A stretch of DNA of 64,000 nucleotides from Marinilabiliaceae bacterium JC017 (GTDB taxonomy: Bacteria > Bacteroidota > Bacteroidia > Bacteroidales > Marinilabiliaceae): contig RHGE01000033.1 in the NCBI GenBank assembly GCA_004296775.1, positions 1-64,000 on the forward strand. Reading direction: 5' to 3'. Positions 20,514 to 42,230 of this stretch are shown in pieces. A program made the translations under genes and the position numbers. Position 1 is the first letter of the stretch; the number at the start of each line of letters is the position of its first letter. The notes below the pieces were generated by a model. It was not told where the DNA came from. It saw only the letters and a program-made list of their open reading frames with translations, and did no database searches.

Positions 20514-21374
20514 TTACTTCCCAATCATCCGTTCCTGCTCCAATCCTTTCCCGTATTTTTTGATGGTATTGATCAATTCCAGTAATTCGGGTTGGTTGAA
20601 GTTACTGGAGTCAGGCAGCTGGTGTTTCTGTTTGTTGAATAGGTCAGCATTACCAAAAATGTGGATTAGATCATCTATGTTGTTGGGTACTAAGAAACGG
20701 CACCGGTGGGCGCCCAGTTTCGAGAGGTATTCGTTGAAGTAGATGGCGATGCCGGCGGGGTCGAAATCACCGAAGTGAAGGTATTGATTGGGAATGGTGG
20801 CCAGCCACTTGTTGGGACTGATGCTTAGGTAACGCATCACCACCAGTATCTCTTGTTGGGGAAACAGGTGCAATAGCTTGTGAAACTTGATGAAGCATTC
20901 GGGGTTTTCCACCCCAATAACCAGGGCGGAGGGAGAGAGGGTGAGCAATTCGGGTTGGTGCACAAAGAGTTCGGCGCCAGGGGGCAGCTCAGGTACCGGC
21001 TTGTTAGAAAGGGTAATAGACGTGTTAAACGGCTTGATGAAAAAACCCTGCAGGCTGTGCTTCCGAAATGTCTTGGTGGAGGTGGTGGCTTGCAGTGAGG
21101 CCTGTCCGTCAATGGCCGTCTCGTTGAATGAGTTTATATACTCCTTCAACGAGTGGATGTCAAATTGCCGGTTCAGGTAGGCAGCCAGTTCTTCTTCTGC
21201 TACACAACGGTAGTTAAACCGTCTGCTGCCGGCCGGCATCCTGAGGATGATGCCGTCTTCAACAAACTGTCTTAACAGCGCTTTGGATGAAAAGTCGCTG
21301 TAGTTCAGCATTTCGCCTGTCAGCATTCGCATCAGGCACCGGGCAAAAGCCTGCGTAATGGGTTTAGATGGCAT
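20514..21374 (-). CDS. jetD: Wadjet JetD-like Toprim nuclease subunit
   Basis: JetD is the nuclease that cuts closed circular DNA once JetABC has extruded it. This 286-residue protein carries a Toprim core in its C-terminal half: the catalytic Glu in LVIGVENPECF (Glu156) and the DxD pair in HFGDFDPAGIAIYFNEYL (Asp203, Asp205). The N-terminal half is a DUF3322-like helical arm. It is shorter than the JetD proteins I know of (nearer 380-400 residues), mainly in the N-terminal part, so it may be a compact variant. It overlaps the JetC-like gene by 11 bases and is the last gene of the operon; the pyrimidine-rich array follows. A topoisomerase VI A relationship is expected for this fold. Confidence 0.88.
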   Translation of the reverse strand: MPSKPITQAFARCLMRMLTGEMLNYSDFSSKALLRQFVEDGIILRMPAGSRRFNYRCVAEEELAAYLNRQFDIHSLKEYINSFNETAIDGQASLQATTSTKTFRKHSLQGFFIKPFNTSITLSNKPVPELPPGAELFVHQPELLTLSPSALVIGVENPECFIKFHKLLHLFPQQEILVVMRYLSISPNKWLATIPNQYLHFGDFDPAGIAIYFNEYLSKLGAHRCRFLVPNNIDDLIHIFGNADLFNKQKHQLPDSSNFNQPELLELINTIKKYGKGLEQERMIGK

Positions 21375-24300
21375 TGCTAATCAGTTTTGTGACACTTGTT
21401 TTATTAGTTGTGCGGTCTTTTCTAAACATATAAATGTGTTTGTAGTCCTGTTCGTTGTGCGAGTTGGGCGATCCGTTGATCAGGTGGATGTGGCGTTCTT
21501 CGGCAAAGCGAATCAGTCCGGTCACATTGCTATCGTGTAAGATACCCACTTCGTCAATAATACAATGCAACCGCGTGTCTGTCTTTAATTTGTTACCATT
21601 TGATTTGAAGATATGCAACAGGTTGATGTAAATCATTGATTTCACCAGTACGTCGGTACCATTGGAACCCACATTGGCCAGGCGGCTCACCCAGCTGGTG
21701 TCGTTATCGTTCTCGCGTATTCGAAACTCCAGGTCGAAGGCATCTTCCAGCTGTAATAATTTGGATTTGTGTTGCCCGATCTGTTTTAAAAGGTTCTCCA
21801 GAAGCTCAACGGCTTGTTTGTCATTTTGTCCTGTTCCACCCTGGTTGAAGAGGTTGATCTCCCCAAAACTGATCCCCTTATCGGCCTGGAAGTTGCGTAT
21901 TTGTCGCAATACTTGTATCACTTTGTTGGTACTCTCTTGCAGGCGCATCTCAATGCTTTTGACTACCCCCACAAAATTCGATCCTTTGAAATCGGCGTTA
22001 ATCTTCTTGATGATTTTGTGAATGTCGCCCTCTTTTTGCAACAGGTTATTGGTTTCATTCACAATATTATTGAGCACCATGGCATATTTACGTGTCACCT
22101 CCGTCTGGTATTCGATGATTTTTTGTTCACGCACAAACTCGGTGAGGTTTTCGGCGTAAGCCCTGTATTGAATCTTACCGATGATGTGTGTTTCGAAGCC
22201 CAGGCAATTCCCCTGTTTGAAATAGCCGGACAGTTCAGTGATTCGTTCTGCCAGTGATTTATCGTTTTTCTCGTAGGCCAGGGCCAGGTTTCGGATGCTA
22301 TCGATCAGCTCCAGGCAGGAAGCTTCGTTGTATTTATCGTGATGCTCAATGAAGGTCCGCAATTCTTCAAAGAGGCTCTCTTTTGAGAATCGGAGATAGC
22401 TATTTATTTGCGTTTTGATGAGATCGAGCTCTTTCTCCAGCTTTTTTAAGTTCTCGGTTTGTTCTTTGAGGTTGTTGTTCTCCAGTTGCATGCGTTTGTT
22501 ATGCAACGTTTGTTTATGATCAATATCGGCCTCAATAGCTTTGCGTCGACGGCGAAAGGCATCGAGCTGGTGGATATATTCATTGCAGTCTTTCTCGTAC
22601 TCGACAATTGTTTTGTAGTGATTATCTATTTTTTTCAGATGCAGTTTTGCCTTTCCAATGACTGCTTCCAGTTTTTTAATCTGGTGGGTGTCGATACCTT
22701 TTTCCTCCAGGGTGCGCTGTCGTTGTTCATTTAATTTTTCCAATTGCTCCTGAAGCTGTTCCTGTAAAAGCCTTATTTGGGTGTTGGTGTCATCCAGGGA
22801 CTGTTGCATGTTTTTCTTAATGCTTTTTTCCTTGGCATTAAAGTTCCTGGTAAGCTCTTCTATTGCTTTTTCTTCCTGTTTTTTAAGTTCCTGAATGAAG
22901 GTGTTTAGCTCGGCTAACTGTTGGTTAATCTGATGTTTCTGCAGGCTTTTCTTGTCCAGTTCTTTGCTTTTTTCTTCTTTCTGCTTTTCTTCTATTTGAT
23001 TAAGATGCAGGATGTGTTTTTCTATCGCAATCTCGCACTGTTGATATTGATAAATAGCGATCTTTATTTGCTCCCCCGCCTCATTGATGCGTTTATTATA
23101 TTTCTGGGTGGTTTTATCTTTTTTCTTTTGCGCTTTTTCAAGTTCATCATTTATCTGTTGGTTCAGGCTGGTCAGTTTAGCACTGCTGTTTTTGAGATCC
23201 AGTTCAAGCTCTTTTTTAGAGAGGGTAACGGGTTGGAGATGGTCCAGGTTCAAGGTGAGCCCATATAGGTTATCTCCTTGTTGCAGGCGTGGCTCCAGTT
23301 CACTGTGTAAAAGTACGTCGCGACGAATTACCTTGCCAATGGTGTTTTGCCATTGGGGGTGCTCCTCCTCCAGGAATTCCAGCAGCGAACCGCTAAGTGA
23401 TTTTAGTTCATTATCCAGTGTGCTTAGCTTATCTTCTAACGTCTCTCTTTGTTGGTAGAGAGGTTGCAATATTTTTTCTGATTCCAGCGTTGCCATTCTT
23501 TGCTGACTTTCTCCCTCTTTCAAGAGGGTTTCTTTCAGTATTTCGGCTTGCTCTTTTTTAGCTTTCCAGGCTTGCTTCTCTTTTTCGCTTTTCTGCTTCT
23601 GCTCCAGTGTAGTTGCTTTTTCTTCCGCGAAGAATATCTTTTGGTCTAATGCTTTAATCTCATAATCGAGTTGCTTGAGAGACATCAAAATCTCTTGTCG
23701 CTCTTCCTGTTGTACCTGTGTTTTATCTCTGAACTCTTTGTTGGTAATCTCTTTGTTGGCATAGAAATCATCTTTTAATTGTGCTAGCTCCTGTTGCCAT
23801 TGTTCTTTTTTTTGGTTCAGATTACCGGTGATGCTATTTATTTGTTGCTGACAGTTGTTTTTTAGGTTTTGGGTACTATGGCGGTAGTTCTGTTCCAGGT
23901 CTTTTAGTCCCGCAGTAACGATCTTAAGTTGTTCCTCAGCCTGGGTTTGTTCTTGTTTGTAGAGGCTTTTTTTATTGTATTCGGCAATGACCTGCTCAAT
24001 CTTTTTGTTTTCGTACTCTTTCTCCAGCTGATTGGCCTTTGAAATATCGTTCTTAACCACTGATAATTTGCCTTGCAAAATGCGTTTAGTGTCGGCAAAC
24101 TGAGCGGTTAGTTTCTGTATTTTCGATTTTTGGTCCTGAATGGTTTGGCTCAGGGCTATTTTATTTTCCTCAGTAACTCTTGAGATCTCTTTATTGTGGT
24201 TGTAGGTACCACCTATTTTCCAGGCTAACTCTTTGCGATCGTTTTCTTGTTTGAGTATTTCTGCATAAAGATTAACGATACTCTTTGCTTTCAACTCCTG

Positions 24301-24978
24301 TTTCAGATAAACCGTGACCGCTTCATAGTCATTGCGTGCCGTTTCTAAGTGGTGCCGGTTGGTATCAAGATTTATTTCAAAGGAGTCGTCACTGATGGAG
24401 TTGATGATTGTCTTTTTTATGAAACCAGCATCGAGTGATGAATTAAGGAATATGTTAGATATGGTACGCGGAATATTCTGGTAGGTCTGGTTTTGGAGCA
24501 GGCTGAACCGACGCTCGGCCTTGTTGGCCCCATAGATGATATCCAGGTACTCGGTGAAATTATAGATGGGGCGTCCTACCTTGTAGCCCAACGAATTGGC
24601 TTTTACAATGATGCCTGATTCGCTAAGTGCATGATTGTCTTTTAATACCAATTCTTTTTCGTAGGCACCATCGATAAAACGGAAGCATAACCGATTTTGT
24701 TTTCGGTATAACCACACGCAAAAATTCCGGTCTTCCTGTTTTATTTCGTATAGGATATAGGAATCAGCATGGGGGAAGTAGTATTCGCTAAATGATTTTT
24801 TCTCACTGGAGATGCCCAGTTTCCGGGAATTGGCATTATAGAAAAACAGGATAGCCCGTAAAAGGGTGCTTTTTCCGGTTCCTTGCGTGCCAATGAAGTG
24901 TATGTTACCATCAAGTTGCATCTCACGGAAATTGAAATTGGCACTGTTTACTAATATTATGCGTTGCAACTGATTCAT
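21364..24978 (-). CDS. jetC: Wadjet JetC-like SMC/MukB-type ATPase
   Basis: A 1,204-residue SMC-like motor. The Walker A motif is GTQGTGKST at residues 30-38 and the Walker B is CIIDEVGIL near 1139-1147; a signature-like NVGSNGTDVLVKSMIYINLL lies between them, so both halves of the head are present. Residues ~250-900 are almost entirely long coiled coil (KQEEKAIEELTRNFNAKEKS, QEQLQEQLEKLNEQRQRTLE) with a hinge-like interruption. In Wadjet the JetC dimer with kleisin JetA and JetB extrudes DNA loops until it senses a small circle and licenses JetD to cut it. It starts within ATGA shared with the JetB-like stop codon (4-base overlap). Full length. Confidence 0.93.
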   Translation of the reverse strand: MNQLQRIILVNSANFNFREMQLDGNIHFIGTQGTGKSTLLRAILFFYNANSRKLGISSEKKSFSEYYFPHADSYILYEIKQEDRNFCVWLYRKQNRLCFRFIDGAYEKELVLKDNHALSESGIIVKANSLGYKVGRPIYNFTEYLDIIYGANKAERRFSLLQNQTYQNIPRTISNIFLNSSLDAGFIKKTIINSISDDSFEINLDTNRHHLETARNDYEAVTVYLKQELKAKSIVNLYAEILKQENDRKELAWKIGGTYNHNKEISRVTEENKIALSQTIQDQKSKIQKLTAQFADTKRILQGKLSVVKNDISKANQLEKEYENKKIEQVIAEYNKKSLYKQEQTQAEEQLKIVTAGLKDLEQNYRHSTQNLKNNCQQQINSITGNLNQKKEQWQQELAQLKDDFYANKEITNKEFRDKTQVQQEERQEILMSLKQLDYEIKALDQKIFFAEEKATTLEQKQKSEKEKQAWKAKKEQAEILKETLLKEGESQQRMATLESEKILQPLYQQRETLEDKLSTLDNELKSLSGSLLEFLEEEHPQWQNTIGKVIRRDVLLHSELEPRLQQGDNLYGLTLNLDHLQPVTLSKKELELDLKNSSAKLTSLNQQINDELEKAQKKKDKTTQKYNKRINEAGEQIKIAIYQYQQCEIAIEKHILHLNQIEEKQKEEKSKELDKKSLQKHQINQQLAELNTFIQELKKQEEKAIEELTRNFNAKEKSIKKNMQQSLDDTNTQIRLLQEQLQEQLEKLNEQRQRTLEEKGIDTHQIKKLEAVIGKAKLHLKKIDNHYKTIVEYEKDCNEYIHQLDAFRRRRKAIEADIDHKQTLHNKRMQLENNNLKEQTENLKKLEKELDLIKTQINSYLRFSKESLFEELRTFIEHHDKYNEASCLELIDSIRNLALAYEKNDKSLAERITELSGYFKQGNCLGFETHIIGKIQYRAYAENLTEFVREQKIIEYQTEVTRKYAMVLNNIVNETNNLLQKEGDIHKIIKKINADFKGSNFVGVVKSIEMRLQESTNKVIQVLRQIRNFQADKGISFGEINLFNQGGTGQNDKQAVELLENLLKQIGQHKSKLLQLEDAFDLEFRIRENDNDTSWVSRLANVGSNGTDVLVKSMIYINLLHIFKSNGNKLKTDTRLHCIIDEVGILHDSNVTGLIRFAEERHIHLINGSPNSHNEQDYKHIYMFRKDRTTNKTSVTKLISNAI

Positions 24979-25559
24979 ACGGTCTCGTTTTCTATGGTTT
25001 CACTTGTTTCTTCTTGGGTGATGCTAACAGCCATTACAATTTGTTCCATGTAATCCCAGGCATCCAACAGTTTCCAGGTTTGGTTTAATTCATTTTCCAT
25101 GTCAATAAATCCATCCCGTTGCAACTCCTTGAGTAAGGCCGACACCATCTCCTGGAAGTTTTTATCCGTACTACTTCTTTTACTGATGGCACTAAGCTGT
25201 TCGCGTAAGGAGAGGTTAACATCTACCTGGCTCAGTATATCATGCGGGGTGAAGCGGGCGCCGCGGCATAAATCTTTGCGAAAGGTTGTGAAAAAAGCCA
25301 GGATGTCTAACCAGCGTAAGGCCTTATTGATTTTTGCTTCGGTGGCATGATTGTTTTCAATGGGCTTAGAGAAATAGTAATAGTTATTACCACTCTCCAG
25401 TGTGAAACCAATCTCTTCAAATTTTTCTTTCAGTTCCTCGTAATGTTCTTCCGTGTATTGAAACAGGTAGCGTTGGTCTGATTCTATTGCGTTGGAGCAG
25501 ATGAAGTTTCCTTTGCTGAGCTGATCAAATATATCTGCGGTGTAATTATTGGTATTCAA
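24975..25559 (-). CDS. jetB: Wadjet JetB-like (DUF4194) subunit
   Basis: A 194-residue protein of the MukE-like DUF4194 type, which forms paired winged helices on the kleisin. Helical segments such as KALRWLDILAFFTTFRKDLCRGARFT and LREQLSAISKRSSTDKNFQEMVSALLKEL fit this family. The only sensible start is a TTG that overlaps the last 14 bases of the JetA-like gene, so translation is probably coupled. The gene ends in a 4-base overlap with the JetC-like gene. The order A-B-C-D with overlaps is the canonical Wadjet layout. There is no catalytic motif, as expected. Confidence 0.88.
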   Translation of the reverse strand: MNTNNYTADIFDQLSKGNFICSNAIESDQRYLFQYTEEHYEELKEKFEEIGFTLESGNNYYYFSKPIENNHATEAKINKALRWLDILAFFTTFRKDLCRGARFTPHDILSQVDVNLSLREQLSAISKRSSTDKNFQEMVSALLKELQRDGFIDMENELNQTWKLLDAWDYMEQIVMAVSITQEETSETIENETV

Positions 25560-26760
25560 TGTTGGCTGTTTTGATAGTTGGGTAAATCATGGCGTACTCC
25601 ATGTTGTTGTAAATAGCGGTCTCTTCCGTGAAATATAGTTCCGATTCAAAGAGGGAAGCTAAGCGGCAGTAGAGCCGTACTCGCTCTATGGTATCTACCT
25701 CTTCTGCAAACTGATGCTGTTGCATAAACGAAAAGAGATCTTGTTGGTTTTGAAGGAAGAGATCTTTTAAACCTCCCATGTTTACAGTGTTTTCGATACT
25801 CTCATTGTTGATTAACGCATCCGGTGGTATCTCGCCGGCTACATTCATTTTCAGTTCATGTTTGTTCTTTAGTTTATCTTTGATTTTCAAGATCATGATT
25901 TGAAGCTCTTCCTTCTCCTGCATATCAGCTATCGATAGCTTCGATCGGGTAGGTTCGGGTTTCTTAACCGGTAAATGGTTTATCCCGCCTGCCAGCTCAT
26001 AGAAATTGGTTTGTTCCCGCAGGTAATGCTTGTCGCGAAGTGTTTTTAAACGTAACACTTTCTCTACCACCTGAACCCGTTTCTCGATATAATTTAAATA
26101 ATCAATCACCTGTTGTTGAATCTCAATCAGGTTGTTATAGCTGTCGTGTAACGCCACTTTTAATCGATGTACAATCATTAGTAACTCGTCATCGGCGGCT
26201 GTTTTGAAGAAGAGATCATTTTCCAGCAGGTGTTCAACTGCTTTGATAACACCTTCCAATGCATCGCGTTGGGTGCGAATGTTATTTAATTTTTCCCGCT
26301 TTATGTCGAAGTTACTTTCTCCTTTGTAGGTTTCATCCGTATTGTTACGAAGGGTTTTCACATTCATCAGGGTGATGCGCGAAATACTTCTCAGGCTTTT
26401 CTTTATCCTCAGCAGGTATTGATCCTTTTTAATGGCTTGCTGCTCCTTCAGGTAGTAAGACTGAAATTCCTTTATTCGATCCAGATTTTCCTGTATATAA
26501 AGGATATGCACGGTTTCGTCCACTTCCATGAACTCCTCGAAGAACTCCTGCAGGCGTGACTCCAGGGTTATCTGTGTCTGACTGCGAAATAAGAGGCCAT
26601 AGGCCGTTAGTCGTTCCAACTTCTCTTGATCGTCATCCAGTAAGGATAATACCGCATCTTCATTGATGGTATTGATTCGTTTATCGAACAGGGCGGCAAA
26701 GAGCTTTCTGTTGCGATACAGCTCACTGATGAGATCTTCTATTTTATCAAACTTAGGCAT
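25546..26760 (-). CDS. jetA: Wadjet JetA-like kleisin subunit
   Basis: A 404-residue, highly helical protein in the JetA position. The start ATG (MPKFDKIEDLISEL) is chosen because the 30 bases before it only extend the frame to a TTG. Segments DETVHILYIQENLDRIKEFQSYYLKEQ and EVDTIERVRLYCRLASLFESELY fit the DUF3375-like kleisin group, with an N-terminal winged-helix-like part (ISELYRNRKLFAALFDKR) and a C-terminal part that should clasp the JetC head. It is the first gene of the four-gene operon, with a candidate promoter just upstream. Sequence similarity within JetA proteins is low, so this assignment rests mainly on gene order and size. Wadjet subtype not assigned. Confidence 0.82.
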   Translation of the reverse strand: MPKFDKIEDLISELYRNRKLFAALFDKRINTINEDAVLSLLDDDQEKLERLTAYGLLFRSQTQITLESRLQEFFEEFMEVDETVHILYIQENLDRIKEFQSYYLKEQQAIKKDQYLLRIKKSLRSISRITLMNVKTLRNNTDETYKGESNFDIKREKLNNIRTQRDALEGVIKAVEHLLENDLFFKTAADDELLMIVHRLKVALHDSYNNLIEIQQQVIDYLNYIEKRVQVVEKVLRLKTLRDKHYLREQTNFYELAGGINHLPVKKPEPTRSKLSIADMQEKEELQIMILKIKDKLKNKHELKMNVAGEIPPDALINNESIENTVNMGGLKDLFLQNQQDLFSFMQQHQFAEEVDTIERVRLYCRLASLFESELYFTEETAIYNNMEYAMIYPTIKTANIEYQ

Positions 26761-26787
26761 AATGCTTGCTTCAGGGCGTTGCGAGGC

Positions 26788-26795
26788 CAAAAATA
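26788..26795 (-). promoter_or_regulatory. candidate -7 box of the Wadjet operon
   Basis: Read on the minus strand this is TATTTTTG, a match to TAnnTTTG, placing the transcript start about 20 bases before the JetA start codon. The -33 region reads TTA instead of TTG, so the match is partial. Confidence 0.4.
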
Positions 26796-30599: not shown

Positions 30600-31026
30600 C
30601 GCCTGCCCGCTTCGGATATAATTTGACAGGATTCACAAGATTTACATGATTGGGATTCTGGATTTTTTTGTCGTGTTGATGGCCCTGGATGATACAACTT
30701 TTCTATCATTTCTCTGTGGCTCGGTGAATACTATATAACTCTTTTAATCCTCACTGTTTATATTATAATCAAACCACCCCGATTTTCATTGCTTACTCAA
30801 TGAAAATCACCCCTCCTAATTCTTTTAGGAGGGGAAAGAAGTGACCGGGCGAAAAGAGAATGAATTACGAGTATTTGAATCCTTTTAGTAGATGTGTAGC
30901 ACAATCTTCTCTGCATCTCTTGGGGTTTGCGGAAAATCGGCATGAGACTTAAGGTACTGGTAGCGTCAATTTAGAGTTATCTTACCTTTTGTTAGGATGT
31001 CAAGACTTGAAGACTCTGTATTTTAA
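30600..31026 (+). repeat. ~420-bp intergenic repeat, copy 1
   Basis: This copy and that at 31179 share most of their length, including two hairpins: TTTTCATTG ... CAATGAAAA and CCCCTCCTAATTC ... AGGAGGGG. Neither copy has a credible ORF. The spacer from the MBL gene to here (30397-30599) begins with the GTAGAACCC hairpin and has no gene. Confidence 0.85.
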
Positions 31027-31178
31027 TCGGGACGTTGTCCCGGCCCCTAGTTCCTTTTTGGCATCGCCCCAAAAAGGAACCAAAAAACTCTAGTCAATTA
31101 CTCACAGAGTGTTTATTCTGGTGTTCGTGATTTAGCTTCGCTGATTTTCAATTCCGCTTCGCTCCAATTAAACGTTTT

Positions 31179-31587
31179 CGCCTGCCCGCTTCGGATATAA
31201 TTTGACAGGATTAACAAGATTTACATGATTGGGATTCTGGTTTTTTCTGTTGTATCGGTGGCACTGGATGATACAATTTCTTTATTATTTCTCTGTGGCT
31301 ACTATATTACTCACTGGTTGAAATTACAATCAAACCACCCCGATTTTCATTGCTTACTCAATGAAAATCACCCCTCCTAATTCTTTCAGGAGGGGAAAGT
31401 ATTGACCGGGCGAAAAGAAAATGAATTACGAGTATTTGAATTCTTTTAGTAGATGTGTAGAATAATCTTCTCTGCCTCTCTTGGGGTTTGCGGAAAATCG
31501 GCATGAGACTTTAGGTACTGGTAGCGTCAATTTAGAGTTATCTCACCTTTTGTTAGGATGTCAAGACTTGAAGTCTTTGTGTTTTAA
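31179..31587 (+). repeat. ~410-bp intergenic repeat, copy 2
   Basis: Direct copy of the element at 30600, with scattered substitutions and small deletions. The stretch 31070-31180 between the copies holds a CCCCAAAAAGGAACCAAAAA-type dispersed sequence, also present in part near 44760. Confidence 0.85.
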
Positions 31588-31856
31588 ATTGGTATATAGT
31601 CCTATGCCCTACTTTCTTTTGAGTATTGTTCTAAAAAGAGTAAGCAAAAAATGCTCGTCAAATAAACGCTCCTGAAATAACTCAATAATTTACAATTTGC
31701 GCAGTGCTGTTTCTGACGTGACTTAGTTATTTGGTTTTGCGTTCCTGGTTAATGGTTTACTTAGTGATTGGTTGTATTGCTTCCGGCTGATGGTGGGTAA
31801 GGGGTGTGTTGATAGTAGGGGAAAGCCTTCGTCTAAGCCTCGATAGGTGGTCTTAG

Positions 31857-32344: not shown

Positions 32345-32384
32345 GAAAAAAGGCACAAACCCCCTAAGGGATTTGTGCCTTTTT
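32345..32384 (-). terminator. terminator of the giant T9SS protein gene
   Basis: AGGCACAAA and TTTGTGCCT form a stem with an inner CCCCTAAGGG part. On the minus strand a T run follows, 37 bases after the stop codon. Confidence 0.88.
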
Positions 32385-32421: not shown

Positions 32422-35400
32422 CTATCTTTTCAGAACTTGTTTTACCATGTTTCCATCAGTAGTTTGCAATTGAATCAGGTATGTTCCTGCGGGCAGTCCG
32501 GACATATCCAGTTTTTCTTTGGATATATTATGGAATTGCTTTTGCATGACTACATTTCCGGCAATATTCACAACGGAAATAAAAACTTCGCCATTGTAGT
32601 TGTCCATTTCCAGCCATAAATAATCCTGGCATGGGTTAGGATACAACTTCATTTGCATTTGTTTCACTTCATTAATGCCAGTAGCAGTGTTCACTGTTAC
32701 CGTGAACGAGGTTTCTACTGATTTGCCATTAGAGGTTCCTTTCAATGTAATTTGAGTTTTCCCCAAAGCATTAGGAACAAATGATAAACGCAGTTTTCTG
32801 TTCTCAATAACAGCGGTAAGCAGATCAGGATTACTTTGCTCTTTTATGGAAATTTCAATTAATGCATCGTCGTTATCCGGATCGGTAAACAACTGGCTTA
32901 AATCAATCAGCTTGTCTTCCGTAGTATTCACCAAGTCCATATTGGCTATGGGGTGATTTACTTCAGGGGCGAAATCAATCTTCTCTCCGTTGAAATTATC
33001 GATACAGAAATAGGCCGGAGTGGTTAATCCCTGGTCATTGTTACGGGAACCGGAAACAATAAACCGAATGGTTTTAACCTTTCCAAGTGATGACAGATCT
33101 ATCCATTTCCATTCTTTCAGCATAAAATGCTTGTCGGGATTAGTTGATCGGTAATCGGCCAGGTAAATGTCTTTACTATTGGTTATTGTTCCGTTATTAT
33201 CGTAGCCTGTAACGGTTACCATATAGTAATCACCCTGGGTGAATTCTCCACCTACATAGGAATCTCCATTTTCCATGGAATATAAAGTGTATACACTATT
33301 AGTGATGTACATACCTTTTACATTATCCTTTGTTGCGCCATTGTTCAAATGAATTTCCGGTACATAATTACAGGCATAAACAACGGCGTAATTACCTTCA
33401 TGGTTTACGTCTCCTCCTGCTGCATTTCTGAATTGTTGAGTAAGGTATTCAGAAGGATCAAATGTGGTACTGGTTTCATTCGAAATTCCAAATCCTTTCC
33501 AGGAATAATTGTTGGGTTGATAGAAATTGGAAAATTTGTATGACCCGCTATAGAAGAAACTACTTTCTTGCTCAGGATCACCTATCAGGTAACTTTCAGG
33601 TGTTAAAGCAATTTCTTCAAAGTCGGCTGTTTTAGTGACTGATGAGGTTACATTTACCAATACCTGATCGGAAATTTCCGAACCATACTTATCGGTTATT
33701 TCAATGGTGTATGCGGTAGTTGTAACAGGGGAAGCCTCCGGATTTAAAATGGTGGCATTGGATAAGGCATTAGCTGGTGACCATTGGTATTGGTAGGGTT
33801 TTACACCTCCGGATACCACTGGAGATAGTTGAATGCTCTCCCCTTCATTCACTGATAGTTCATCGGGCATATTTACCTGTAATGGTAATGGCATACCGCT
33901 GAAGTTGTCAATGGCGTAGCCACTGGCATTGGCAGCAAATTCAACACCGACAATACTTCCCAGTTCACGCATATCCACATAGGTCCAGCTGTCTGATGGC
34001 AACACGTTGATGCTTGTTGTATTGCTTCCATCCTTCAGTTTTCCGGTGATTTGTAATTGGGATGCTGACTTGATGAAAAAGCCGTTAAGAATTAATCCTT
34101 CTTCGGTATTCAGGATTGATACTGTTGCAGCGGTGTTGGCTGCGACGTTGGCGTACTGCAGGCTGCTTTCCACTCCTTCTCCCTTGGTGACAGTGAATCC
34201 TTCGAAGTGTGCGGTACCATCATTAAAGCTGGTAGTTCCTTCGGCAAGTGTTTCAAATGATGAAGGTTCTGTGATTTTATGAGTGGTAGCAAAAGCGCAT
34301 TTTACCGGTGCTTCCATGCAGTTACCCAGGTTGTCTTCTGCAACAAGGTAAGCATCATATTGGGTATGATCGGTCAGGTTAGTGATTGAGAATGTCTCCT
34401 CCCGATCTTTGTTGATTTCAATACTACCTGCCATTCCGGCTTCTAATGCTGTGTTAGCCGCATTGGTTCCTGCTTTTACCTGTGCTACCGATGGTGTTGC
34501 CGCATCTTTATTTAAAGTCACAAAATAAAGTTTTCCGTTTTGATCCGTTTGGGCGGCCAGTTGAGCGGAATAATGATTCGTCATCACCACTTTGGGGTAA
34601 CCTTCAGCAAATACAGGTGCGGTGGTTGAAGCCGCCTGGTATTCATCTGCCCCCATGGTTGGATGCTCAGTATTTCGCTCATCACCATCGATATCTTCAG
34701 TAATCAATAAGCCTGAAGTACCGGTGTTTAAGTTTCCTTTAGCCTTTATGTGCAAATCAGTTTCGGAATAGAATACCACCTCCTCGGAGATGGAATGAGC
34801 TCCTTTACCAATGGCTTTCCAGGCAGCGAGGTTTTCGTACTGGACTTGTTTATATCCTTTTACAAGGATTCCTTCGCTGTATAAATTGTTATAGTCCAGG
34901 TGACATTGGTCCAGTTTGTTTTCACTATTTACTACCAGGGCAGGGGCTTGTCCTTCGCTTATCAGGATGTTGTTTTTCATGTTAACACTCTGTACCGGGT
35001 AGTTCAGTACAAAGGCAGCTTTCCCTATACCACTACCGGTAATTTTAATCGTGTTGTGGTAAATTCCAATGTGTTCAGCGGAACTGATGGATATTCCGCT
35101 AGCATTTTTGTTGGATGAAGAGATGTTCACAATATTGTTGAATACCATGAGTTCATCATTTTCATTTCCAACGGCTTTTTGGAGGTAGATGCCTTTAGCT
35201 TCTTCTATGCTGACATCTAAACGAATGATATTATTGGATACAATTGTTTTTCCTTTAGGATTTCGAATTGTAAGAGCATTAAAATCACTCTTGGTAGTGC
35301 TGTTATTCACCACCATGTTGCCCTGAATTGTTCCATCTGTAATATCAGAAAACCAAAGTGCTTTTGAGTGTTGTTTTTCGAACCGGTTTCCTTGAATGAG

Positions 35401-38400
35401 GTGTCCTTTCTCTTTGGGCAGTCTTGTATAGCCAGTACCCCAAATGCTTATGCCGTTGTATCCACCACTAACCAGGTTATTGATAAAGCTCAGGCGATCG
35501 TTGTTTTTATTGGCTTCATTCTTGGCTTTAGTTGATACGCAGCAAACTCCACTAATACTTGTGGAATTAGGAGCAATCAGCTTATTTCCTTTAAAAACCA
35601 GGTCGGTACTTACATCACGGATATAAACCAAAGCTACCATGCTTTTATTGGTAGTTTTAATAGTCATGTTTTCAAAGTGAAAGTAATCACCTCCTTCAAA
35701 GGTCAGTACTCCATATTTGGGTTTATCATACCCCGGATCAATATATCTGTTGTAGATCAAAGTCACGTCATCCGCATTGCCCGTTTCCGATTTAAAGGTG
35801 ATGGTGTTATCTGTGGAGGTACCCTGTATGGCAGGAATTTTTACTTGTTCGAGGTAAACGCCTGATTCCACGTTGAAAGTTACCGGGCCATCCACACCAT
35901 TTTTTAATGCTTCAACAGCTGTAGAGAAAGAGGTATAATCACCAGTTTCTCCAATGGTATACTCTCCATGGAAACCAGTCTGAATTTGTCGTCCTGGTGT
36001 TGTCTCACCCGGTTGAAGTGTATGAATATCGCCATTGATGCTGATATTTTTACACTGGCCATTAACAATGTTACCTGGTGTAGCTGATTTGGTTATGTCG
36101 TATACCAACCAGAAGTAATAGGTCTCTTCCGCCGCAATTTTTATATCTCCGGTGATGGTAAATTCTCCGGAGGGTGCAAGTACTGTTTCGCCAAATTTGG
36201 TAGCTCCGGCTAAATTGAATTCTTCGGATGTTCCTGTATAAAACACAGAAGCTGTGGCGATGTCGCTATCCAGGGTGGTTCCTTCGGTAGTGAAGGTTAT
36301 TGATTCCACTTTGGCGGGTTGTATTTCGCCTTTGAAACCAACGGCCAATTGGAGTATGTTGGTCTCTTTTTCCGACTTCAAAACCTTGCCTGTTTCCGGT
36401 TGTGAGTCTGTCGCTGATTCAAAGTGGATGGGTTGTTGAACAAAGCTCTTCACGTCAGCTTCCCAGCCTGTTTTAGCGGAACCATACGATGGAGAAGTAA
36501 ATTTAACTGTTAACTTTCCATCATCAGTAGATGACTTAAAGAAATAGGGCTGGTCGGTTTTGTTGATGTTCTCATCATCATCCATTTTTTTTAACAACGC
36601 ATCGTCGCTAACTTTCCCTCCATTATAGATATATAGTTTAGGCCCATCATTAATATCCAGTTTGGAGATAGTCAGCCGTACTTTATGAGTAATGTCTTCC
36701 GGAATAAAAGTTACGACACCGTTGAATTTCTTACTGTATTTTTCAGATATACCACCGTTGTCATAAAACATAGTAGAGAATTGATTCACAGTTACCTGAT
36801 TTACTCCTGCCTCCATGTTATAAATTTTCTTTATGGGACGGTTGCCCTCCGGGGACGGATTTTCAAGGGTATGGGTCTCTTCATTAATTTCCACATCCAG
36901 GCATTGGGCATCCAGCACATTTCCCGGGGTCGCATTCGCTTTTACGTCATACACTAACCAGAAGTAATTATTTCCCTCCATCAGTGTTTGGGAGTAATCA
37001 AAGCTAAATGTACCGTTGGGATCAACAATTGTTTCTCCTACCTGGGTGGTAGTGGCAAATTGATTACTACGTCCGGTAGTATATAATTTGGCTGATGCAA
37101 TATCGGCCGGAGAGGTAGATCCGTTGGTGGAAAAGTTTAACTGAAGGTTTTTAAAGGGATTTAAAGCACCTTCAGTCTTTACAATAGCTCCAAGAATCAA
37201 TTGATCATTACTACCTGCACGGATAATATCCGTGTTTTGTGTCAGGAGTGTTTCCTTGTAAACCATCGGTGAAGGGATATAGGTTTTTACCTGCGCTTCC
37301 CAGCCATTTTTGGTATGGGATGAACTGCTGGCCTTTCCTTCAAAACAGACAGTTAAGCAGCCATCTTCTGTAGTGGAGCAGATAGGTGCCCCAGGACCTG
37401 TTTCACAATCTTCGGCTTGCGTTTTATACAGGAGGTTATCTGTTGTTTTCTCACGGCCATTGTAAACTTCAAATTTTGCTTTGGTCCCGTAGCTATAGCT
37501 TGAAAAATAGAGTGCGAATGAGGAGAATGTAATCTTTACTTTTTCACCCGCATTAGCCGGTTCAAAAGTAACTGTTCCTTTGGCATTGTAAGTGTATTTA
37601 CCGCCTGTTCCTTCATTGTCATCGGTAAAATCAAAGGGAGTATAGACTGTTTTGGTATGGGTGCCTGATTTTGGCATGTGGTAGGTGTTATCGATAACCC
37701 GGTTCCCTTCCGGTGATGTGTTGGAAGGAGTCTTCTCCTTTTTGTCTATAACAATAGCGTTACAAACGGCATCCACTTTATTCCCATTTGCTGCCAAAAT
37801 GGCTATGTCGTAAGTAACCCAGAAATAGTTTTTACCATATTTCAGAGCCTGATCTTGTTGAATTTCAAATTCACTTGCCGGGTTGTCAACAGAACCAAAC
37901 AGTGTTGCATCTGAAAACTCCTTCGAGTTTCCGGAATAGAAAATGTTGGCTTTGGCAATATCAGAAGCTGCTGTGGTTTCTCCCAGGCCAAGTTTTATTT
38001 TAGAAACAGTTAATGTATTTAACGTGTTTTCAGTCACTACTTCTAAACGCAACATTTGTGTGTTTTGGTCTCCTGCTGCCACTATTTCGGTTGAGGGGTG
38101 GACGGCATCGGAAGAGACATACACCATGTTCTGTGGAACAATTTCTGATACATCAGCTACCCAGCCTGACCATGGAGTTCCGGTATTAACCTTGAAATAA
38201 ATGGTTAGAGAACCATCGGGTGCTGAAGATATTATTTTCGACGGAAGATTTTTGGGTCCGGAATAGTATTGGCTTTCCTTTCCGTAGTATTTTCCAATCA
38301 GTATGTCCTCATTGGTTGTATTACCATTAAATACCTTAAAAATATCGTTGGTGCGGGTAATTGATTTATTCTGAAATATTTCAAATGAAGACCAGTCGAT

Positions 38401-40338
38401 TTGTATTTTTCTGTTTGGATCGGAGGGAACGAAAGTTATTGTTCCTTCAAAGTCGTCACTGTACTTATTCGCTTCACCACCATTGTCGTAGAATAACAGA
38501 TTCTCTTTTACCGTACAGGTGTTTTTGCCAGAAGGCATATTCAACATCCGTTTTAAAATCCGGTTACCTTCTGGAGCGGTGATTGTAGGTGTTTCATTTT
38601 CTGTTCCAAAGGAAACAGAAGTGCATTCAGCATCTACAACATGATCCTGGATGGCATCGGAATTGATATCATAGGTTAGCCAAAAATAATTTTTTCCTTC
38701 CATTAGTTCCTGACTGCCCTCAATTTTAAATGATCCGTTTGGAAGGGAAAAATTACCAAATTGAGTGGTGGTGGAAAATTCTTCCGATTTACCTGTATAG
38801 TATACCTTGGCATTGGTAATATCTGCAGGATCAGTTGTTCCATTAGTGGAAAAGGTGATGGCGCTGGCATGCAGTTTATCTTTAGCACCTTTGGTAATAA
38901 TCTTTAATCTAATAATCTGATTATTGGTTGTACCGATGGATAACAGATCGGTGTTGCATTGTTCGGTGGTGGAGCTCACATATTGCATGGGTGATGGTTC
39001 AAAAACTTTAATCTGATCGAGGAAAAGATTATTTGAACCATAATCGCTTGTAGCTTTGAACTGAATCAGTGTTTGATCGGTTGCTCCTGTCAAGTCTAAT
39101 TGTACTTCCGTCCATTGGTCAACACTACCATCTGCATCCTGATTGTAAATTTCGGTGAAGGTTAATCCGTTATCGACAGAGATATTCACGGTAAGGTTGG
39201 CATCCGGATCGGAATCCTTTTCGCATTGCCACCAGAATTTGAGCTGGGGCGAATTGAGCGTTGATATCGCCAAAGGAGGGGTGGTAAGGGTAGCGATTTT
39301 TCCGTTACTCATGTAAGTTACCTTAGCCATGGCAGCTTTTTTACCCTCAGGTACGTTACCTGGGCCATTTGAAGTACCATTATTACTTGACCAGCCATAT
39401 TTGTTATGATTGGAGGTAGTTTGCCAACCAATCGGAGGAAATTGAGTGGCTTCAAAGCCCTCGAACCATGGGAATGTGCGTATGGTAGGATCATCCTTTA
39501 CGGTAAAACTCCAAACGGGTACCTGGGATGTTTCACCATAATCATTGTAAGGTGCTACTTTCCAATAGTAGGTAGTGGCAAAGGCTAATTTAGTAGCAGG
39601 AAAAGTTGTTACCTTGCCCAGATCTTTCCCGTTAATTATATTGGTAGCGGCAGCATCGGTTCCCAGGTACATTTTATAGCCCTTAGCATAGTCAGCTTTG
39701 TTCCAGGATAATTGAATTTGTTTATCCATTCCGGTACTCTCATCAGCAGGAAGCAGGACGGTAGTGGCCAACGGTGGTTCCTGAGGAATATAAAGAGCAG
39801 GGCCTGAAATATCATCGATGGCGATATTGCATTGGCCGCTACTCCATGAACTGGATGCCCAAAATCGAATTTGAACTTTATTACTTGTTGAATAGGCTGA
39901 GAGGTCCAGGGTATGTGCTGTCCAATCGCTTTCATTGGCGCTATTTTCAATATTTAGCACATCAGTGGTCCATGTTTGCCCACCATCATTAGAAACATCT
40001 ACATGTAAGCCGTTACTTTTGGGTGTGACAACAGTATAAAAGCTTAATATTTTTATACTTTGGGTTAAATCCAATAATGGAGTATATAAATGAGCTGTTT
40101 TACCTTTGTAGGTAACACAACTCTCAAATTCTGCAAAATAGGTACCTGTGTGAGGTGTGGAAATGCTGTGGTTTCCTGATTCTGTTAATTGCCAGCCTTT
40201 TGTGTTTCCCTGGCTTTTCTCGTGTTGCCAGCGTTCAGGGGGATACGTTTCCCCTTCAAAGCTCTCGTTTAAAAACACCTGTGCTTGTAGCAAGGAGCTT
40301 AAAATCATTAGAATTGATAAAACGTAAGTTTTCTTCAT
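32422..40338 (-). CDS. 2,638-residue surface protein with T9SS tail, DUF4465-like domain, B12-riboswitch controlled
   Basis: Signal peptide 1-19 (MKKTYVLSILMILSSLLQA). Then a choice-of-anchor-J/cleaved-adhesin domain (~20-185), an FN3-like domain (~190-280) and a second adhesin/MAM-like domain (~285-450). Four BNR-associated N-terminal-type modules start near 451, 739, 1024 and 1303, with three CUB-like modules between them (near 600, 886 and 1174; motif FYDNGGxxxKYS). Residues ~1460-1870 look like a right-handed beta-helix, followed by Ig-like parts, a DUF4465-like domain (~2230-2450) and a T9SS C-terminal domain from ~2560 (LYPNPCQDYLWLEM...KQVLKR). It is probably exported and anchored at the surface. 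The cobalamin riboswitch upstream implies a role in corrinoid capture or B12-replaceable metabolism; DUF4465 proteins recur under such riboswitches in Bacteroidota. No catalytic residues were identified. Confidence 0.9.
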   Translation of the reverse strand: MKKTYVLSILMILSSLLQAQVFLNESFEGETYPPERWQHEKSQGNTKGWQLTESGNHSISTPHTGTYFAEFESCVTYKGKTAHLYTPLLDLTQSIKILSFYTVVTPKSNGLHVDVSNDGGQTWTTDVLNIENSANESDWTAHTLDLSAYSTSNKVQIRFWASSSWSSGQCNIAIDDISGPALYIPQEPPLATTVLLPADESTGMDKQIQLSWNKADYAKGYKMYLGTDAAATNIINGKDLGKVTTFPATKLAFATTYYWKVAPYNDYGETSQVPVWSFTVKDDPTIRTFPWFEGFEATQFPPIGWQTTSNHNKYGWSSNNGTSNGPGNVPEGKKAAMAKVTYMSNGKIATLTTPPLAISTLNSPQLKFWWQCEKDSDPDANLTVNISVDNGLTFTEIYNQDADGSVDQWTEVQLDLTGATDQTLIQFKATSDYGSNNLFLDQIKVFEPSPMQYVSSTTEQCNTDLLSIGTTNNQIIRLKIITKGAKDKLHASAITFSTNGTTDPADITNAKVYYTGKSEEFSTTTQFGNFSLPNGSFKIEGSQELMEGKNYFWLTYDINSDAIQDHVVDAECTSVSFGTENETPTITAPEGNRILKRMLNMPSGKNTCTVKENLLFYDNGGEANKYSDDFEGTITFVPSDPNRKIQIDWSSFEIFQNKSITRTNDIFKVFNGNTTNEDILIGKYYGKESQYYSGPKNLPSKIISSAPDGSLTIYFKVNTGTPWSGWVADVSEIVPQNMVYVSSDAVHPSTEIVAAGDQNTQMLRLEVVTENTLNTLTVSKIKLGLGETTAASDIAKANIFYSGNSKEFSDATLFGSVDNPASEFEIQQDQALKYGKNYFWVTYDIAILAANGNKVDAVCNAIVIDKKEKTPSNTSPEGNRVIDNTYHMPKSGTHTKTVYTPFDFTDDNEGTGGKYTYNAKGTVTFEPANAGEKVKITFSSFALYFSSYSYGTKAKFEVYNGREKTTDNLLYKTQAEDCETGPGAPICSTTEDGCLTVCFEGKASSSSHTKNGWEAQVKTYIPSPMVYKETLLTQNTDIIRAGSNDQLILGAIVKTEGALNPFKNLQLNFSTNGSTSPADIASAKLYTTGRSNQFATTTQVGETIVDPNGTFSFDYSQTLMEGNNYFWLVYDVKANATPGNVLDAQCLDVEINEETHTLENPSPEGNRPIKKIYNMEAGVNQVTVNQFSTMFYDNGGISEKYSKKFNGVVTFIPEDITHKVRLTISKLDINDGPKLYIYNGGKVSDDALLKKMDDDENINKTDQPYFFKSSTDDGKLTVKFTSPSYGSAKTGWEADVKSFVQQPIHFESATDSQPETGKVLKSEKETNILQLAVGFKGEIQPAKVESITFTTEGTTLDSDIATASVFYTGTSEEFNLAGATKFGETVLAPSGEFTITGDIKIAAEETYYFWLVYDITKSATPGNIVNGQCKNISINGDIHTLQPGETTPGRQIQTGFHGEYTIGETGDYTSFSTAVEALKNGVDGPVTFNVESGVYLEQVKIPAIQGTSTDNTITFKSETGNADDVTLIYNRYIDPGYDKPKYGVLTFEGGDYFHFENMTIKTTNKSMVALVYIRDVSTDLVFKGNKLIAPNSTSISGVCCVSTKAKNEANKNNDRLSFINNLVSGGYNGISIWGTGYTRLPKEKGHLIQGNRFEKQHSKALWFSDITDGTIQGNMVVNNSTTKSDFNALTIRNPKGKTIVSNNIIRLDVSIEEAKGIYLQKAVGNENDELMVFNNIVNISSSNKNASGISISSAEHIGIYHNTIKITGSGIGKAAFVLNYPVQSVNMKNNILISEGQAPALVVNSENKLDQCHLDYNNLYSEGILVKGYKQVQYENLAAWKAIGKGAHSISEEVVFYSETDLHIKAKGNLNTGTSGLLITEDIDGDERNTEHPTMGADEYQAASTTAPVFAEGYPKVVMTNHYSAQLAAQTDQNGKLYFVTLNKDAATPSVAQVKAGTNAANTALEAGMAGSIEINKDREETFSITNLTDHTQYDAYLVAEDNLGNCMEAPVKCAFATTHKITEPSSFETLAEGTTSFNDGTAHFEGFTVTKGEGVESSLQYANVAANTAATVSILNTEEGLILNGFFIKSASQLQITGKLKDGSNTTSINVLPSDSWTYVDMRELGSIVGVEFAANASGYAIDNFSGMPLPLQVNMPDELSVNEGESIQLSPVVSGGVKPYQYQWSPANALSNATILNPEASPVTTTAYTIEITDKYGSEISDQVLVNVTSSVTKTADFEEIALTPESYLIGDPEQESSFFYSGSYKFSNFYQPNNYSWKGFGISNETSTTFDPSEYLTQQFRNAAGGDVNHEGNYAVVYACNYVPEIHLNNGATKDNVKGMYITNSVYTLYSMENGDSYVGGEFTQGDYYMVTVTGYDNNGTITNSKDIYLADYRSTNPDKHFMLKEWKWIDLSSLGKVKTIRFIVSGSRNNDQGLTTPAYFCIDNFNGEKIDFAPEVNHPIANMDLVNTTEDKLIDLSQLFTDPDNDDALIEISIKEQSNPDLLTAVIENRKLRLSFVPNALGKTQITLKGTSNGKSVETSFTVTVNTATGINEVKQMQMKLYPNPCQDYLWLEMDNYNGEVFISVVNIAGNVVMQKQFHNISKEKLDMSGLPAGTYLIQLQTTDGNMVKQVLKR

Positions 40339-40525
40339 GAATAATTAATTTGAAAAAATTTATAATGGAGGTGTTGACTCGATGATCTTAAGCATCAGCA
40401 GGCAAACCTCATAGTTATTCTATGAAGCATTGGGTTTTGTAAAGGCTATAAAAAATAAGACGACAGCTATTGTTCGATTATTTTTCATCCCTTCAGCTTT
40501 AACTCCCGAAAGCTTCAAGTATTGA

Positions 40526-40716
40526 TAATGCTGGCAGGTTTTCTGACTTATCCCATTTCAGACGCCTTCCCATCACTCCCCGGTATTATCCGGGATAGAA
40601 AACAGTGGCAGAGGTATTGTCTGAAACTTTTAGGAATTACAGCAGCGGGTACTGTTCCGGATTTCAACCGGATTCCCTTTTCATTTCGTCAACCGAATGG
40701 TTGACTGAAACACCAG
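40526..40716 (-). ncRNA. cobalamin (B12) riboswitch
   Basis: Read on the minus strand it shows the conserved elements in order: GGGAATCCGGTTGAAATCCG with ACAGTACCCGCTGCTGTAA, then GCCACTG, then GGGAAGGCG, and the B12 box AGTCAGAAAACCTGCC. It lies ~190 bases before the giant T9SS gene with no other gene between, so it should control that gene, normally switching it off when cobalamin is plentiful. The spacer 40339-40525 contains an AGCTTT...AAAGCT hairpin and a CTTCATAG...CTATGAGG hairpin that could form the expression platform. Confidence 0.95.
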
Positions 40717-41839
40717 AATTATTTCACAATTAGTACTTTTAAAATGTCATTTTAAGCATGAAGCTTTTTAGCTTGAATTGTCTTCCCTGGTTCTTTCCAT
40801 TAGATTAAGTGTTTTGTATTTGTTTTAATTAGTAATTGAATTCGTTTATCTATTGTGATAGATAGTCTATGGTTATATGTGTATCGGAATTGTTATGGTG
40901 TGCTAAATAAGCGGATTGACTATTTATATTATGTGTATAAGTTAAGGTCGTATCTCTTATAAAGGATTTTTTTAGTGAAAAACGGTCTTTTCGTGAGTGA
41001 TTCTTACCCGATGGAATTTAGCCGGAATCCACCCAATTGTTTGCCAGAACTTTTGTAATAAGTATCCACTGGTTGGTTGTTACGGGCAAAAATATGGTTA
41101 TTCTCTATTTCCTCTTCGTCTTTGGTCGTGATAGTATGATCAGGAAAACAGCGTAAGGTTTTAGTAGTCTTGGGAAAAGGGTTTTTCATTAGTTCAGGTT
41201 GAGAAATTGGTATTAGTGTCTTATCAATAATGTTTGTGTATTTTTTAGCAGGCTATTGCAATACCGGTTATGTAAAAATCTTGATACTCATATCTGTGTG
41301 CTTTTCTGGCTTGTCCAGGTTAGGTATAGATATTTTGATGGGCAAATATAGTAAATATGACCATTGGAAGGTTCGAATAATGGGGGAAAATGTTTGGATG
41401 GATCGCGGAGGTGGGGCTGTGGGAGAGGTGGTTAGTGTGTTTAGTGGTTTTAGAGTTTTGAGTTTGTGTGTTTTGGGTTGGCAGTTTCATTCCTGATGAA
41501 GGGAATAATGACCGGAGAGAGGGGAAGCTTGATAGATGATCCATGATATTTAATTTCTGTTTTTTCTTGTAAAGGTGCCAGGGGATGCGAGGTGTGATGA
41601 TATTATTCAATCGTACACACCACCTAGCGTTTGTAAATCCACTATTCAACCCCCTAAGATTAGGGGGACTAAGGGGGTAAGCAAGCAGGTGGAAGAAAAT
41701 GTTGAATGCATAATCCTCAGTTTTGCATTTATTTATAACCTCTGTTTCCATTGTCTTAACACTAAATTTTAAGTGAATGTAAAAAGCACCAGAGAAATAC
41801 AGGGTAATTAAGAGTAAACTATAATTTACTGTTGTTTTT
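40717..41839. other. intergenic, repeat-bearing
   Basis: No gene is confidently supported. A 61-codon minus-strand frame at 41004-41189 has no recognised domain. An ACCCCCTAA-type hairpin sequence at about 41650-41680 is a dispersed element of the kind common in Bacteroidota spacers. Confidence 0.4.
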
Positions 41840-41938: not shown

Positions 41939-42078
41939 GTATTTTGACGCGACAAGGACCGGTTGAAAGGTTATGTAAGCCGGTATAATCAGCAGACAAG
42001 GAGAAATTAGTCAAATGATGATAAAAACAAGGTTGCTTTCTGTGTAATCCCAGATGGCAACCTTGTTTGTTTTTTTTG

Positions 42079-42230
42079 CCGCGGGACAGGAAAAATAGCC
42101 GCGGGACCCTATTCCAGCCCGCGGGACGATTCCCCTTATCCGCGGTGTTTAACTCCTTTTTCGCGGGATTAAACAAACATCCGCGGGAATGGAATATTTT
42201 ACCGCGGGAACAGATCCCCAATCCGCGGGA
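42079..42230. repeat. CCGCGG(GA) array, eight cores at 20-21 bp
   Basis: The palindrome CCGCGG (once reduced to CGCGG) starts at 42079, 42099, 42119, 42140, 42161, 42181, 42202 and 42223, spacing 20-21 bp, usually followed by GA. Spacers differ in sequence. No ORF or known element explains it. Confidence 0.85.

Follow-up and report, generated by a model that had tools for sequence, protein, structure and literature searches.

Capture of vitamin B12 at the cell surface is an important field in which gut Bacteroidales compete, and the closest described counterparts of the protein reported here belong to the DUF4465 family (PF14717 / IPR027828). B12 binding has been reported for eight divergent family members (PMC13398666) and is very tight for BtuJ1 and BtuJ2 of Bacteroides thetaiotaomicron (PMC12751083), in keeping with the original prediction for this DNA, according to which some such surface proteins bind B12. 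We analyzed a 64,000-nucleotide stretch of Marinilabiliaceae bacterium JC017 (contig RHGE01000033.1; hereafter, the window), in which an intact open reading frame (ORF) with an ATG start (32422..40338, minus strand) encodes a 2,638-residue protein with a DUF4465 domain and a type IX secretion system (T9SS) tail. The gene is solitary and appears to be expressed more strongly when vitamin B12 is scarce. We propose, with a probability of about 0.83, that it is a B12-repressed, stand-alone gene for a giant cell-surface B12-capture protein.

The giant resembles BtuJ1, BtuJ2 and Coraliomargarita D5EK51 in domain family, fold, key tyrosines and extracellular location, and its gene, like those of the BtuJ proteins, lies in a cobalamin-riboswitch locus. 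Solved BtuJ-type proteins are small and single-domain, whereas DUF4465 here makes up a short C-terminal portion of a 2,638-residue T9SS protein that, unlike them, has a β-helix, a stalk and a gene of its own. The combination of DUF4465 with a T9SS tail is shared with other members, as 229 of 824 carry the tail entry IPR026444 by InterPro co-occurrence (PMC12751083). BtuH and BtuG likewise capture B12 at the surface, are encoded in cobalamin-riboswitch loci and adjoin giants in many relatives, but their folds differ from that of the giant. Large T9SS surface proteins that unite MAM/cleaved-adhesin-like modules with cofactor capture are also known as the gingipains and haemagglutinins of Porphyromonas gingivalis, and the parallel extends to a sister form of the giant that adds a clan CD protease. 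It is one of shared principle rather than membership: the gingipain ligand is haem and that of the giant would be B12, and only the sister form has the C11 peptidase.

The DUF4465 domain is predicted to bind B12

The domain spans residues 2234–2455 (32974..33639, minus strand, as are all features of the gene). PF14717 matches residues 2278–2449 over profile positions 4–176 of 176, with 177 bits against a cut-off of 25 (E 5e-52), which makes it a genuine DUF4465 rather than the DUF4465-like domain first supposed. A comparison of the predicted structure with B12-binding proteins, proposed earlier as a check, came out in favor of binding: the model of residues 2234–2455 (predicted local distance difference test score (pLDDT) 95) overlays B12-bound 9HMU with Z 28.4 and 1.8 Å over 206 residues and BtuJ1 (9FCT, 9QPM) with Z 26 (26.1 to 9fct), and it matches the augmented β-jellyroll fold of the B12-bound family structures. 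Structural matches outside the DUF4465 family reach Z 9.5 at most. Y2350 and Y2443 correspond to the B12-contacting tyrosines of BtuJ1, Tyr146 (DE helix) and Tyr245 (HI loop), and T2440 corresponds to Thr242; the 99-residue Tyr146–Tyr245 spacing in BtuJ1 agrees with this mapping, and Y2443 is invariant among 35 aligned DUF4465 domains. From alignment and model, we strongly predict that the domain binds cobalamin between the conserved tyrosines.

The giant gene lies behind a cobalamin riboswitch

A cobalamin riboswitch aptamer (RF00174) was identified by cmscan at 40516..40732, with 94.9 bits against a gathering score of 31.5 (E 2.5e-22), a complete model match (1–189) and an intact B12 box (AGTCAGAAAACCTGCC). 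It is the sole Rfam match in the window, and the ORF of the giant starts ~178 nt downstream of its end. The B12 riboswitch of the original prediction is therefore genuine, although the stretch assigned to it stopped at 40716 and the Rfam match reaches 40732. Directly 3′ of the B12 box lies a P13-like hairpin, GCTTT-CGGGAGTT-AAAGC (40497..40514), which recurs behind the B12 box in many relatives' loci with compensating stem changes and is probably the regulatory portion of the riboswitch. A hairpin loop like CGGGAGTTA, present at 40497–40514 and in many loci, fits the L13 half of the known cobalamin-riboswitch kissing loop. A short ORF between riboswitch and giant gene (40420–40488; MKNNRTIAVVLFFIAFTKPNAS) was considered and rejected for want of conservation among relatives.

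Downstream, ~43 nt past the stop codon, a likely intrinsic terminator can be read from the sequence as GGCACAAA...TTTGTGCC followed by a T run (32352..32379); it was not flagged by a simple scan, which admits short loops only. The nearest genes encode a pentapeptide-repeat protein, a uracil-DNA glycosylase, an MBL-fold protein and RibA, and those closest on either side have the opposite orientation. Given this orientation and the 3′ hairpin with its T run, the giant gene is probably transcribed by itself.

Riboswitches accompany DUF4465 giants across Bacteroidales

Relatives were gathered by a genome-contig search with a six-row alignment; a genome-contig scan with the entire window protein as query returned none. 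DUF4465 occurs in 120 of 295 genomes of the order and in 11 of 392 in a phylum-wide sample, and DUF4465 giants recur across many families. Loci of relatives and of the own genome are given as L numbers. Our survey comprised 79 named loci, in which 50 DUF4465 proteins of at least 1,000 residues could be judged from their upstream DNA: a B12 box immediately precedes 24 of them, 20 belong to apparent operons and 6 are in unclear settings, in line with the earlier statement that DUF4465 proteins recur in cobalamin-regulated loci. Giants of the operon type are mostly accompanied by BtuB, BtuG or BtuH, usually in the order BtuB-BtuG-BtuH-giant in Prevotellaceae and BtuH-BtuB-BtuG-giant in Carboxylicivirga; two of the 20 sit behind another DUF4465 giant. 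The BtuH neighbor family was identified through 7BIZ (E 3e-44), and its profile, partly driven by the T9SS tail in a first 'PAPGQ' version, was rebuilt without the tail and the neighbors re-examined. Rfam confirmed riboswitches at L051–L055, L057–L062, L079, L085, L096, L138 and L144, and places one upstream of the giant in both Bacteroides salyersiae (in DSM 18765, locus L096, at L096:3743-3937) and Prevotella pallens. The closest relative, L071, matches the window protein at 43% over ~2,270 residues, and its gene begins 43 nt past BtuG in the order BtuB-BtuG-giant; L072 (Carboxylicivirga), another close relative, has BtuH-BtuB-BtuG-giant.

As a control, we used T9SS clostripain giants of comparable size and style without DUF4465 (n = 16). 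None of the 16 has a B12 box, and none of the eight tested has an Rfam riboswitch, whereas a riboswitch precedes each of the three DUF4465-bearing clostripain giants whose upstream DNA is readable (own genome included). The riboswitch thus goes with DUF4465. On these sequence comparisons, the window giant appears to belong to a widespread, undescribed Bacteroidales family of DUF4465 giants.

Some Prevotellaceae proteins carry two to four DUF4465 domains in tandem (L103:5372-10819, L112:6581-11512, L113:7964-12190, L118:7961-11506 and L133:512-4069), mostly encoded directly behind BtuG; these are possibly multivalent B12 binders.

Architecture of the giant and its sister form

The protein begins with a signal peptide, MKKTYVLSILMILSSLLQA (residues 1–19; 40282..40338), read by eye from the sequence. 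A MAM / jelly-roll domain follows (residues 37–178, 39805..40230; PF00629, E 7e-16, two stretches), with a second MAM-like stretch near residues 289–446, its limits also read from the sequence. Four BNR_assoc_N repeats (PF14873, E 3e-47) with interleaved CUB-like modules occupy approximately residues 449–1450 (35989..38994). The alternation of BNR-associated and CUB modules described earlier is thus supported by Pfam in four stretches for the former; the latter are assigned by homology, as Pfam scores CUB in the homologous modules of L012, L051, L052 and L138 only, not in the window protein. After the β-helix (residues 1457–1905; 34624..35970) come three linker domains (33643..34623) that the AlphaFold2 (AF2) model suggests to be fn3-like (1906–2020), jelly-roll (2026–2150) and Ig/PKD-like (2152–2232), the last with weak SprB / decoration-protein matches. 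DUF4465 is followed by a spacer, read from the sequence and probably Ig/cadherin-like (residues 2456–2560; 32659..32973), and by a T9SS type A C-terminal sorting domain (residues 2565–2638, 32425..32646; TIGR04183, E 2e-12), of which Por_Secre_tail (PF18962, E 6e-11) covers residues 2565–2635. With an N-terminal signal peptide and a tail matched by both profiles at the extreme C terminus, the protein has the features of type A T9SS cargo; the 2,638-residue T9SS protein claimed at the outset is borne out.

The β-helix, also anticipated by the original prediction, has no Pfam match, but its AF2 model (pLDDT 90) scores Z 24–30 against many parallel β-helix proteins (30.4 to 2pyg and 26.6 to pectate lyase 1ru4). 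The matches include epimerases, lyases, phage tailspikes and the PfbA adhesin and indicate resemblance of fold only. A DIDGxxR..GADE motif marks the C-terminal limit of the β-helix, which the alignment shows to be retained across the giant family; its invariant columns are mostly structural Gly/Asn, and no known catalytic set of a lyase or hydrolase could be recognized among them.

A paralogue on contig C490 of the same genome (L012:3722-12178), behind a riboswitch at 91352–91556 of that contig, encodes a 2,818-residue T9SS giant that shares the scaffold of the window protein and carries a C11 clostripain domain (PF03415, E 1e-51) between β-helix and DUF4465. Its His and Cys motifs (DHGGGW and FDVCLA) look intact, and no second C11 gene was found in the genome. 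The same architecture occurs in L052 and L053 and, on a cut contig, in L050. In a quick tree, the DUF4465 domains of L012 and three other genomes form one clade, and the C11 form was found in these four genomes only. The idea that β-helix and protease are alternative heads was rejected, as the alignment places the β-helix in both forms.

Genome context and other features

The 6.65-Mb genome has eight cobalamin riboswitches and three DUF4465 genes. BtuB/BtuG genes lie downstream of two further riboswitches (L020 and L017), so that handover partners exist elsewhere in the genome. Genes for lower-ligand and corrinoid salvage were recognized by eye at L016 and L018, and a search of the genome found no CbiC; the organism is therefore probably unable to make the corrin ring and a probable corrinoid scavenger. 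The T9SS machinery is represented by PorV (E 6.7e-158), the one component searched for.

The riboswitch-BtuH-BtuB-BtuG operon at L020 is headed by an 882-residue T9SS protein with no Pfam domain except the tail (L020:854-3502), which may be a further kind of B12-binding protein. L020:3569-5032 and neighbors in L064 and L065 are BtuH-like proteins, encoded upstream of BtuB, in which a T9SS tail replaces the lipoprotein signal. Elsewhere in the window, repeated CCCGCGG motifs cluster at 42070–42230, in the intergenic region that separates the riboswitch from the pentapeptide-repeat gene; two near-identical intergenic stretches at 30600–31620, ~540 bases apart, share GGAGGGGTGATTTTCATTGAGTAAGCAATGAAAATCGGGGTGGTTTGATT and a flank; and a four-gene cluster at 20514–26790 (minus strand), including a 1,204-residue DUF3584 ATPase, is possibly an SMC-like (MksB/Wadjet-like) system.

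A model for surface capture of B12 and its alternatives

Anchored T9SS cargo is attached through its C terminus, and DUF4465 lies ~110 residues from the T9SS tail. C-terminal anchoring would therefore hold the B12 site near the membrane, with the β-helix and stalk outside, an arrangement that points to the outer part as the one that contacts the B12 source. In our model, scarcity of corrinoids would lead the riboswitch to permit expression, by analogy with published Bacteroidales riboswitches, and the signal peptide and the T9SS tail would direct export of the protein, which would then probably be attached by its C terminus at the outer surface. There, DUF4465 would grip cobalamin and pass it to BtuH, BtuG and BtuB, whose genes lie at other sites in the genome. 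The outward β-helix and MAM/BNR/CUB-like stalk would likely reach and hold a B12 source, such as a glycan, cell debris or another cell, and are unlikely to serve as a spacer that holds the B12 site outward. Transcriptomics of X. ruminicola found strong cobalamin effects near riboswitches (PMC11575231); the main text of that study names no giant of the DUF4465 type.

Several points weigh against this model. Thr2439 takes the place of Asn241 of BtuJ1, which lies in the HI-loop NTPxY motif and counts among four conserved residues that form hydrogen bonds; the equivalent position also varies in further aligned members, so that Asn at this site is a common but not a defining feature of the family. 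No BtuB, BtuG or BtuF gene is among those adjoining the giant, which leaves it with no transport gene alongside and agrees with the earlier remark that no BtuB-type receptor adjoins. The B12-box survey relied on a pattern rather than the full model and missed 2 of 15 known cases, and its neighbor calls came from small home-made profiles. Finally, the sequence is compatible with release as well as with the more probable surface anchoring.

Release would make the giant a soluble 'cobalophore', secreted by the T9SS to bind B12 away from the cell and deliver it to surface receptors, a route that has been proposed for vesicles that bear BtuJ. T9SS cargo may be either released or anchored (PMC10202324), and BtuJ on B. 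thetaiotaomicron vesicles aids B12 uptake and has been compared to siderophores (PMC12751083). We nevertheless regard this as unlikely: type A tails are often surface-attached, a ~280-kDa protein with adhesive modules would be a poor diffusible carrier, and no receptor for recapture is known. We think it more improbable still that the giant is chiefly an adhesin or glycan-active surface enzyme made under B12 starvation, with DUF4465 a passenger of little role in B12 acquisition. MAM and BNR/CUB modules such as it carries typically serve adhesion, and the β-helix, retained family-wide, has its best model matches among carbohydrate-active β-helices and the PfbA adhesin. However, the riboswitch tracks DUF4465 rather than the scaffold of T9SS giants, the tyrosines of the B12 pocket are retained, relatives' operons contain BtuB, BtuG and BtuH, and the invariant columns hold no recognized catalytic set.

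It is also conceivable, if doubtful, that the outer part frees B12 for subsequent capture by DUF4465, through a glycan-active β-helix here and by proteolysis in the sister form. We liken this working principle to that of gingipains acting on haem. This 'cut and catch' scheme draws on L012 and L052/L053, in which an intact-looking clostripain, in L012 the only one found in its genome, directly precedes DUF4465 behind a cobalamin riboswitch. Against it, the window protein lacks a protease domain, its β-helix has no recognized active site, and the C11 form is confined to four genomes of a single clade. In its general form, which we offer tentatively and hold to be rather improbable, B12-regulated surface giants of Bacteroidales would grip or attack B12-holding material, and DUF4465 near the membrane would then catch the freed vitamin. 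Such a 'gingipain for vitamin B12' would make B12 obtainable from carrier proteins or cell debris. We favor surface capture by an anchored giant over these alternatives.

Novelty and significance

The original prediction held that a giant T9SS corrinoid-capturing or corrinoid-scavenging adhesin would be new. As a kind, a T9SS-delivered corrinoid-capturing DUF4465 protein is not, since B12 binding and T9SS tails are both published for DUF4465 proteins; the giant β-helix form is apparently undescribed. PMC12751083 and PMC13398666, in the sections consulted, do not describe giant multidomain, β-helix or protease forms, and the open-access literature searched yielded no description of DUF4465-bearing T9SS giants or of a clostripain linked to B12. 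The giant β-helix form, its spread, its Btu operons and its protease-bearing sister thus appear to be undescribed so far.

If our reading is right, BtuG, BtuH and BtuJ gain a widespread class of capture proteins several times larger, present in cultured species such as Bacteroides salyersiae and Prevotella pallens. With the protease-bearing form, it would become conceivable that bacteria draw B12 from protein-bound pools.

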